Source: Tardiphaga sp. 709 (GTDB lineage: Bacteria; Pseudomonadota; Alphaproteobacteria; Rhizobiales; Xanthobacteraceae). From it: DNA of 64,000 bases. Shown one piece after another: positions 11,935 through 56,223 of this stretch. The position numbers and the translations under genes are program-made. Each line of letters begins with the position of its first letter. Positions within the stretch are counted from its first letter, which is position 1. Location: assembly GCF_032401055.1 (NCBI RefSeq), contig NZ_CP135529.1:1178001-1242000 (forward strand), read 5' to 3'. Under the pieces are notes generated by a model. The model saw only the letters and a list, made by a program, of their open reading frames with translations. It was not told the DNA's origin and made no database searches.

Positions 11935-12034
11935 GCTGGCGCGTTCGGAGCCAAGCAAATACGCGCTGCTTGAAGCGAACAAATACCGAAAATCGGATTG
12001 CTTACAGGCCGCCGCCCCGCAGAGCCAATTCGTC

Positions 12035-12103
12035 AGCGATTTGAAAATGGTGGGGGAAGAAGGACTCGAACCTTCGAAGTCATAAGACGGCTGATTTACA
12101 GTC
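12035..12103. repeat. att direct repeat, left (tRNA-Tyr 3' fragment)
   Basis: This copy is identical to 15844-15912 over 69 bp and then diverges. Bases 12048-12103 match the tRNA-Tyr 3' part from CCA back through the anticodon loop, while the 5' part of the tRNA is missing. It is an attachment-site copy and not a functional tRNA. Confidence 0.85.
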
Positions 12104-15350: not shown

Positions 15351-15845
15351 ATGGCTCCGAAATATCACCCTACGCCCCTATCGGGAGGCGACCGAAAAGC
15401 TCTGAGCAAAGAGCTCCGAAAAGCGCGTGGGATGACTTCCATCCTGGCTACTCAGTCCGACGAGATGCGGTCCAAAGGTGACGCGCTGATCAAGCAAGCC
15501 GACCGACTTCTCTGCGAAAGCTGGAACGAACGGATGTGGGCGGATGGCGAACCGATTGACCCTTCTCCTACAGTCGATCAGGCCGTCAACGGCGGATTCC
15601 TCTGGCTGGAGATTGAATGCTCGCGGTGCAAGACGCCAAACAATATCGACCTCGCTGCGCTACGATGTCCGCCGACCACCTTCGTCCACGACCTTTCAAG
15701 CCGCTTGCGTTGCCAGAAATGCGCTAGGGCGGGGGAAGCGGTCGGACGCGACTTCAAGCCCGCCGCGCGACGAGAACAAACACTGAAAATGGAATTGCTT
15801 ACAGGATTGCTTACAAGCTCGACCCCGTCAGGGGAAATTCGCTAG
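15351..15845 (+). CDS. Hypothetical zinc-ribbon-like protein
   Basis: This 164-residue protein has a helical N-terminal half (RKALSKELRKARGMTSIL). A C-terminal zinc-ribbon-like domain follows, with IECSRCKTPNNIDLAALRC and LRCQKCARAG (two CxxC pairs). No enzymatic motif is visible. Its stop codon ends at 15845, two bases into the right att repeat, so its C-terminus is set by the island boundary. The function is unknown. Confidence 0.6.
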   Translation: MAPKYHPTPLSGGDRKALSKELRKARGMTSILATQSDEMRSKGDALIKQADRLLCESWNERMWADGEPIDPSPTVDQAVNGGFLWLEIECSRCKTPNNIDLAALRCPPTTFVHDLSSRLRCQKCARAGEAVGRDFKPAARREQTLKMELLTGLLTSSTPSGEIR

Positions 15846-15912
15846 CGATTTGAAAATGGTGGGGGAAGAAGGACTCGAACCTTCGAAGTCATAAGACGGC
15901 TGATTTACAGTC
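15844..15912. repeat. att direct repeat, right (within tRNA-Tyr)
   Basis: This copy is identical to 12035-12103. It covers 13 bases downstream of the tRNA plus the tRNA-Tyr 3' half. With the left copy it marks the integration target. Confidence 0.85.
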
Positions 15913-15942
15913 AGCTCCCTTTGCCACTCGGGACACTCCCCC
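15857..15942 (-). tRNA. tRNA-Tyr (GTA)
   Basis: This 86-nt tRNA has a long variable arm, as tRNA-Tyr does. The acceptor stem is GGGGGAG paired with TTCCCCC, anticodon loop CTGTAAA gives GTA, the T-arm is GGTTCGAGTCC, and CCA is encoded (15857-15859). The 5' half lies outside the integrated island and the 3' half is the recombination target. Confidence 0.95.
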
Positions 15943-20640: not shown

Positions 20641-20818
20641 GTCATTCCTGGGCGCGGTCTCGGCGTAGCCGAGAGAGCGAGCCTCAGCCACTCCACTTGG
20701 AGTGGCGGGGAATCCCGGTATGTTTTGCGCTGAACAGGTCAGGATTCCGGGCTCGGTCCCGTCGCCTGCGGCGCCGGCCGCGCCCCAGGCAAACCAATTG
20801 GTTTGCCTGGGAATGACG
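20641..20818. repeat. GTCATTCC palindromic repeat (copy 1)
   Basis: The block begins GTCATTCCTGGGCGCGG and ends GCCTGGGAATGAC. Inside are further inverted repeats (CCACTCC-ACTT-GGAGTGG, CAAACCAATTGGTTTG). The same type of block occurs at 56007-56128. It looks like an extragenic palindromic (REP/BIME-like) repeat. With the downstream promoter block it forms a larger unit. Confidence 0.7.
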
Positions 20819-20842
20819 GTGTGGGGCGGCAAGACAGCACTT

Positions 20843-20890
20843 AAACATTTTTTCCTATCCCGTTGACAACATCCCCATCAGGTTTATATT
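20843..20890 (+). promoter_or_regulatory. Near-consensus sigma70 promoter inside a dispersed repeat
   Basis: The conserved 14-mer AAACATTTTTTCCT (20843) is followed by TTGACA (20863-20868), a 16-bp spacer and TATATT (20885-20890). The same order recurs on the minus strand at 55981-55932. No convincing open reading frame follows directly, so the transcript may be non-coding. Confidence 0.6.
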
Positions 20891-21445
20891 CTCTTCCGTC
20901 CTGCCCCACCGAGAGGGGCGATCGCGATCGTCACGTTCGCGGGGCAGGATGCGGTGGACGCCGGAGATGCGGCGTCACGCGGTTCATGGGTGACGTCTGT
21001 CTTCGGGCAGGACGGATCTGCGCCAGCACTGCCACTGGCAAGGAGACGGCCGAGTTTGGGATGGAAAGAAGCCTGGACAGTGTGACGGACGACCAAAGTC
21101 AAAACGTGTCCGGCCTATTCGCTTGAGGCTCCCTTCCCATCGCCTTGGGACTTTGATTCGGTGATCGGATCGTTCGCTGAGGCAAAGTGCAAGCAACCGA
21201 AAAAACACCGCAGGCGGAACGTCGGGCACTTGCTCGGCGCCTCCGAAAGTCCTGATGCATTATCCTTGCGGAAGACCGCATCGCATCAGGCCCAAGGGTG
21301 CAACGGGCACCCGGCGTTCCGCACGCCCTCTTGATGGAGGGGTGGAATGCGAAACACGACGGCGCCCCCGCGCCGCAAATAATGGGGGCGATGACGCATG
21401 CCTGAAGCACCGTGGCTGTTTGACAGTTGAATCGGACGCAACGTG
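20891..21445 (+). other. Long non-coding stretch behind a strong promoter, probably a dispersed repeat
   Basis: About 550 bp without a believable gene follow the promoter at 20863. The only longer plus-strand frame (to 21126) starts inside the promoter and has no domain. Recognisable pieces are CCACCGAGAGGGGCGATCGC at the 5' end and GCACCCGGCGTTCCGC near 21307. From memory, similar sequences recur many times in Bradyrhizobium genomes. Structured RNA or a decayed repeat are both possible. Confidence 0.4.
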
Positions 21446-55458: not shown

Positions 55459-55931
55459 TCGCTCGCGGCGTCATTTGCGTTGATCATCGGATGCAATTGT
55501 CAAACAGCCACGCTCTCGCAGTCTCGCGGCGCCCATGGCGTCCGAGGTGTGAGCAGTCCCCTCAAACGATGAGGGGTGGCGACGCGCCGTGAGGCGCAAA
55601 GGGTGGTTTTATCGCGATCCGCTCCACCGGAACGCCGGCAAGCTGCAACCGCGCAACGCCTCACGGCGCGCCACCGCGGCGATTTCTGTCCCCGGGACCG
55701 TTCTTCCGGGCAAAGGCGCAGAGCTCCGCACTCCGCTGATCCCGACGGTTTCCCGCCGTTCACCAATGCCACGTCCAGCCAGCATGAGTGGCAGACCCCC
55801 GTAGTGGGGTCGGACGGTGACCCAAGGCCTCCCGAGTGCGCGGGGTACGTCACCCCACACCCGCAGGCGCCGCATCCCTGTTCCACCTCAAGACGCCTCT
55901 AGAAGCGCCCCTCGCGAACCGGATAATTCGG
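55459..55931 (-). other. Non-coding stretch behind the minus-strand promoter, repeat copy 2
   Basis: No supported gene. The sequence is palindrome-rich (CTCCCGAGTGCGCGGGGTAC near 55828). Read on the minus strand it has the promoter-proximal GAGGGGCG and a later CCGGCGTTCCG in common with 20891-21445. Overall similarity between the two stretches is low away from these pieces. Confidence 0.4.
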
Positions 55932-55981
55932 ATAATAATCCTTATAGGTATATTGTCAATAGAATGCAGGAAAAAATGTTT
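55932..55981 (-). promoter_or_regulatory. Near-consensus sigma70 promoter, copy 2 of the repeat
   Basis: On the minus strand AAACATTTTTTCCT (55981-55968) is followed by TTGACA (55959-55954), a 16-bp spacer and TATTAT (55937-55932). This is the same arrangement as at 20843-20890. It points into the non-coding region 55459-55931. Confidence 0.6.
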
Positions 55982-56006
55982 GGGCGCCGTTTTGCCGCCC
56001 CAGCTC

Positions 56007-56128
56007 GTCATTCCGGGGCGCGGGCGCGCCTTCGCGCACGTGAACCCGGAATCCCGACATGTTCAGCGCAAAACACAACGAGATTCCGGGTTCGCGTCCG
56101 GCAAGTGCCGGCCGCGCCCCGGAATGAC
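56007..56128. repeat. GTCATTCC palindromic repeat (copy 2)
   Basis: The block is flanked by GTCATTCCGGGGCGCGG and its inverse CCGCGCCCCGGAATGAC. It is the same family as 20641-20818. Next to it, on the promoter side, lies the conserved GGGGCGGCAA block. A degenerate second unit follows at 56140-56190. Confidence 0.7.
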
Positions 56129-56223
56129 GAGCAAGGACAAAGCCCCGGAATGACGTTTGAGCAAAACACTCTGAGATTCCCCGCCACCCCAAGCGGAGTT
56201 AACGCTCGCGCCGGCCATCACCG

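Follow-up and report, generated by a model that had tools for sequence, protein, structure and literature searches.

Two loci of the window (the whole stretch of 64,000 nucleotides analysed here) very probably carry stand-alone genes for large structured non-coding RNAs, each type being present in multiple copies. This conclusion was reached by sequence comparison within the Tardiphaga-like genome (6.36 Mb in two contigs; Nitrobacteraceae) and across its relatives. The copy number, the apparent concerted evolution and the deep covariation of the elements suggest that they are under real selection. The features of the two loci, copy A and copy B, are as follows.

20641..20817, plus strand: Br-REP-like palindromes, GTCATTCC ... 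GGAATGAC, which precede copy A and belong to a separate interspersed repeat.
20843..20856, plus strand: AAACATTTTTTCCT block, possibly an UP-like A/T-rich element, shared by the majority of the 28 copies of type A.
20863..20890, plus strand: sigma70-type promoter, TTGACA-16-TATATT.
20898..21433, plus strand: putative gene for the type A RNA, about 536 nt long if measured from its predicted start site through the 3' tag, delimited by identity boundaries and lacking a coding signal.
20897..20962, plus strand: 5' structured domain (model R2), GUCCUGCCCC...GGGGCAGGAU, from covariation in 56 sequences (51 distinct).
21204..21331, plus strand: 3' structured domain (model R1), GCGGAACG...CGUUCCGC, from covariation in 54 sequences.
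21412..21433, plus strand: boxA-like 3' tag GTGGCTGTTTGACAGTTGAATC, from the identity of GGCTGTTTGACA with the rRNA leader and from counts of GTGGCTGTTTGA.
55932..55959, minus strand: promoter of copy B, TTGACA-16-TATTAT, from the sequence.
55490..55924, minus strand: putative type B RNA gene, about 435 nt, with about 10 copies in the genome; its start is placed by analogy with type A.
55490..55511, minus strand: boxA-like 3' tag of copy B, GTGGCTGTTTGACAATTGCATC, from its match to the 3' end of copy A.
56003..56160, minus strand: Br-REP-like palindromes upstream of copy B, an inverted repeat seen in the sequence.

From the repeat comparison, we observed that the palindrome GTCATTCC/GGAATGAC, the elements GGGGCGGCAA and AAACATTTTTTCCT, and a promoter of the form TTGACA-16 bp-TATATT/TATTAT follow each other in the same order at both loci, which lie inverted about 35 kb apart, as the original prediction had it. 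When the own-genome copies of each locus are considered, the resemblance is far beyond chance. The 3' ends, overlooked earlier, are also common to both (21411-21436 and 55487-55512, 88%), and the bodies in between are unlike, with type A at 20898-21433 and the diverged type B at 55924-55490. The substitutions in the shared 52-nt block had been described as mostly purine-purine transitions; by manual count about 7 of 10 are transitions, but just 4 are purine-purine. The promoter had been placed inside the dispersed repeat, and although it is conserved in nearly every copy, it lies outside the GTCATTCC repeat. These palindromes give short separate matches elsewhere in the genome (query positions 1-200) and do not stand in the same form at all copies. 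Judged by this distribution, they are a separate repeat, usually located just upstream of what we take to be an independent transcription unit.

The loci are far from being the only two. Using an 831-base query from the first locus, BLAST returned 28 near full-length copies in the same genome with E values of 1e-190 or better (about 500-830 bases, 83-94% identity), besides short pieces, and a query from the second locus returned a second set, type B, of about 10 copies. Covariance models R1 to R3, which were built from members of the same RNA family, extended this picture to the whole family of bacteria: type A (R1) was found in 243 of 392 genomes and 21 of 46 genera, and type B (R3) in 102 of 292 genomes and 25 of 41 genera. 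The highest count seen for the 5' domain (R2) was 107 matches in one genome of 7.8 Mb (G297); some of the searches score few candidates per genome, and copy numbers from those are lower bounds. The large genus g49 is presumably Bradyrhizobium, which is probably among the carriers. In an order-wide sample of 397 genomes, R1 matched in only 4 genomes outside the home family. Two genomes of another family of the order (G688 and G699) gave two or three R1 matches with a best E value of 1.6e-8, reflecting either an old origin or transfer. R2 also finds three B copies weakly (L066, E 8e-6; L067, 8e-5; L068, 7e-4), and the two types may have a common ancestral 5' domain.

At the gathering threshold, Rfam 15 had no match in 14 element loci, and its matches in the window were two tRNAs only. 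Relaxed thresholds brought no credible weak match in either window copy or in a relative; a weak S6-S18 leader match (E 0.91) and several to miRNAs were judged to be chance. The open-access main texts covered contained no description of this RNA, only papers on Br-REPs and on Bradyrhizobium start sites and sRNAs, and it may have been noted before under a different name. The elements thus apparently form a large, undescribed family of long folded RNAs. Many Tardiphaga draft contigs (L084-L188) end within an element, where the repeat breaks short-read assemblies.

A separate feature of the window is an 88% direct repeat (11995-12103 and 15804-15912), made up of the 3' part of a tRNA-Tyr gene (15857-15942, minus strand) and a partial copy 3.8 kb away, a pattern of the kind that integration at a tRNA gene leaves behind. 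Among the ORFs between the repeats, the sole Pfam match was to a TMEM175-like channel, and none of them was seen to be an integrase.

Next, the limits of the type A unit were read from the 28 aligned copies. Pairwise identity is patchy upstream (0.5-0.9) and amounts to 0.72-0.83 in the promoter region, climbs to 0.95-0.99 exactly at 20898, stays at or above 0.81 through 21417, and drops to 0.62 where the tag ends and to 0.46 past 21438. The own promoter of the element sits at the 5' edge of this conservation. The motif could be located in 27 copies, and each of these has TTGAC with a 16-nt spacer to TATxxT. In copy A the boxes are at 20863-20868 and 20885-20890, and in copy B, on the minus strand, at 55959-55954 and 55937-55932. 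Since TTGACA at 20863 is followed by a 16-base spacer and by TATATT at 20885-20890, we predicted the start at 20898, the very position at which the first helix GUCCUGCCCC begins; the earlier estimate, near 20897, was within one base and is revised accordingly. From the edges of conservation and the position of the promoter, the conserved unit is therefore predicted to be the transcription unit, of about 536 nt. By analogy, type B would start at 55924.

We then assessed the secondary structure. For the 5' domain (R2; 56 elements, 51 of them distinct, from several genera), 96.6% of the cells are paired and 9 of 21 pairs carry two-sided changes, and none of 500 shuffles reached the observed value on any of the five measures, whereas slid controls were only 33-59% paired. 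The 3' domain (R1, 54 elements) is 96.0% paired, with a covariation score of 0.258 against 0.136 (0 of 500 shuffles for either measure), and its 8 pairs with two-sided changes were not above the shuffles (152 of 500); these two alignments (A4 and A6) were fitted to the models and hence lean towards them. The first R1 alignment (A5) was left out, as reverse-strand matches were mixed in. One long helix of the 3' domain reads GCGUGCGGAACGCC/GGCGUUCCGCGCGC in Tardiphaga and GCGCAGGGAAUGCC/GGCAUUCCCUGCGC in large-genome relatives. Of 100 pairs predicted for type B, 31 show compensatory changes, with 96.5% paired (0 of 500 shuffles), in an alignment (A8) made from sequence only out of nine paralogues of one genome, from which the structure was also predicted. 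Both window copies fold more stably than shuffled sequences (z of -3.3 and -3.2). Compensatory base changes thus support a secondary structure strongly in both types, and covariation and copy number both agree with the original prediction of a family of perhaps structured RNAs.

At about 21330-21405 of the window, the 3' hairpin module of type A elements takes one of two forms, GGCGCCCCCGCGCCGCAAACAAYRGGGGCG or CUCGGRCGC..GCGCCGCGAG. These swap between copies and species, and type B has the second one; the alternation is modular shuffling.

The last conserved part of the element is the tag, which in type A has the form GTGGCTGTTTGACA-N2-TGAATC and just past which conservation collapses. We observed that GGCTGTTTGACA recurs unchanged in the own rRNA leader, 263 bases ahead of the 16S start, where it agrees with the rRNA boxA in 12 of 12 core bases, and that the same 12-mer or a one-base variant stands at -227 to -280 in seven relatives; the bases flanking the tag differ from those of the rRNA boxA. 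Exact GTGGCTGTTTGA occurs at 27 sites in the genome, 26 of them within A or B elements, and its reversed control at none. The lone match outside (L277) lies in apparent coding sequence and was taken as chance. With at most 2 mismatches the tag is found in 17 of 48 diverse A elements (shuffles, under 1%), and among 20 copies of two large-genome relatives 7 are within 5 mismatches of the 19-mer (expected, 0.1%), a clear tag being present in about 7-10 of the 20. It is also found in some B elements of other genera. By these counts the tag is real and common to types A and B, and not universal. A reading of it as a further -35 box was rejected, as by eye no -10 box lies at the right distance.

Where present, the tag may bind NusB-NusE (S10) and perhaps SuhB. 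A link of the RNAs to the Nus/rRNA antitermination machinery, drawn from the tag alone, is possible and to be held only tentatively. The boxA elements known so far exert their effect on the RNA that follows them. A tag at the 3' end is therefore unlikely to serve classical antitermination of its own RNA, and retention, 3'-end formation or titration would fit this position more naturally.

Taking these data together, we favour, with some reserve, the following model. Each gene would give an RNA of about 435-590 nt from promoter to tag, started at a strong sigma70-type promoter. In type A, a 5' domain that is conserved and covaries is followed by a middle part that varies, by a conserved 3' domain and usually by the tag; type B has a different, heavily covarying body, usually with a boxA-like tag at its 3' end. 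The copies are dispersed over the chromosome at sites that related species share, and are apparently kept alike by gene conversion; the RNAs would act free, in trans. Binding of NusB-NusE(S10), perhaps with SuhB, to the tag would couple the RNA to rRNA antitermination and ribosome assembly, by way of 3'-end formation, processing or a decoy function. The more specific idea that the elements form a dispersed, high-dosage decoy or partner for this machinery and tune the output of the single rRNA operon is decidedly doubtful. Titration of CsrA was also considered; the excess of GGA (1145 against 716 TCC) is unconvincing in a G-rich RNA.

The elements could instead be cis-acting modules, whose promoter and boxA-like tag drive termination-resistant transcription so that neighbours are regulated, silenced or insulated. 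The tag is indeed the last conserved feature, boxA acts by modifying RNA polymerase for what lies downstream (PMC5725501), and at some loci (such as L021) a same-strand gene follows about 110 nt past the tag. However, for 24 of the 38 copies in this genome the nearest called downstream gene points towards the element (a manual count on rough gene calls, and modest as evidence), no function is common to the 20 downstream neighbours scanned, conservation ends directly past the tag, and the long covarying body would be superfluous. Unrelated neighbours and convergent orientation speak against regulation of the adjoining genes and favour a trans-acting RNA; we regard cis action as unlikely.

Alternatively, the elements might be a selfish or formerly mobile repeat (MITE-like, or a non-autonomous retroelement), in which the promoter is incidental and the folds are those of palindromes. 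Up to 107 dispersed intergenic copies per genome, their similarity and the rearranged flanks at some of them would fit this. However, positions are kept between species: each of the 28 A copies is bordered, on one side or both, by sequence that matches a locus with an element in another species, and the downstream flank of L021 adjoins an element in Rhodopseudomonas and Nitrobacter too. Nor did four queries match any of 72,556 plasmids, the 20 neighbours scanned include no gene in common, and the compensatory changes extend across genera. A selfish origin seems improbable, slightly more so than cis action.

A role at the DNA level, with the elements as recombination or chromosome-organising sites and the RNA structure incidental, would draw on the apparent gene conversion and on the exchange of flanks and of types. 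Between this genome and NFR13, the 7 same-position pairs (A/B swap included) are 88.6% identical and different-position pairs 91.0%; the values for P9-11 are 87.3 and 88.1, and copies within the own genome are at 91.5. Sharing a position therefore does not make copies more similar, the pattern that concerted evolution would give. At the B locus of the window, the same flanks enclose a type A element in P9-11 and NFR13, with identity of ~0.4-0.6 inside and of >0.9 again outside, and we read this replacement of A by B as probable gene conversion or cassette replacement. One element of P9-11 (L137) has the upstream flank of the own-genome element L004 and the downstream flank of window copy A, which is a rearrangement with its breakpoint in the repeat. 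The DNA-level role is nevertheless very unlikely, because conservation starts at the predicted transcription start, the covariation is RNA-like and the promoter is kept. That the repeats contain small protein genes has a negligible chance, since the open frames of >100 amino acids are as expected at high G+C, 190 of the 192 indels counted over the 28 type A cores break the frame (2 are multiples of three), variable columns fall evenly on the three codon positions (62/55/60), no frame is kept across the cores, and ORFs inside the elements have no Pfam match, which together rule out a coding reading of type A.

Returning to the reading of these elements as genes for structured RNAs, they would constitute a superfamily of ~0.5 kb RNAs with tens to about a hundred copies per genome in many genera, absent from Rfam. 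The element also explains why drafts of these genomes often break off at one and the same common repeat. If the tag is a working boxA, it would be a first sign that RNAs other than rRNA are loaded with the Nus complex on a large scale, and the control of rRNA synthesis in these bacteria would become directly testable. If the decoy idea is true, a free structured RNA would tune rRNA output, as 6S RNA tunes RNA polymerase.

Finally, we compared the elements with known systems. The Br-REP1 and Br-REP2 repeats of Bradyrhizobium (Hahn et al. 2016) are short intergenic palindromes, often at gene 3' ends (PMC5082802). By eye, the GTCATTCC/GGAATGAC palindromes upstream of both copies (20641-20817 at copy A) resemble the Br-REP2 consensus given there. 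The RNA unit at 20898-21433 is not similar to the Br-REPs and has no description in the sections of that paper covered here; it lies downstream, is about 435-590 nt long, and has its own promoter and a different structure. Of the boxA elements of the rRNA leader (the NusB/NusE site) and of the suhB leader, the former shares the 12-mer GGCTGTTTGACA with the tag in the own genome; those boxA elements precede rRNA or a gene, whereas here the tag ends a putative non-coding RNA and the flanking bases differ. The survey of boxA elements by Baniulyte et al. (2017) did not consider non-coding RNAs, as stated there (PMC5725501). If a complex of transcription factors is titrated by the tag, 6S RNA and other abundant trans-acting RNAs might be analogues; the present RNAs differ from them in having no sequence or structure match, a much greater length and many copies. 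OLE, GOLLD, ROOL and HEARO are long, highly structured, conserved non-coding RNAs. The elements described here are likewise long, structured and conserved, and are set apart from these by the lack of an Rfam match, by tens of dispersed chromosomal copies, each with its own promoter, and by no linked protein gene being seen.
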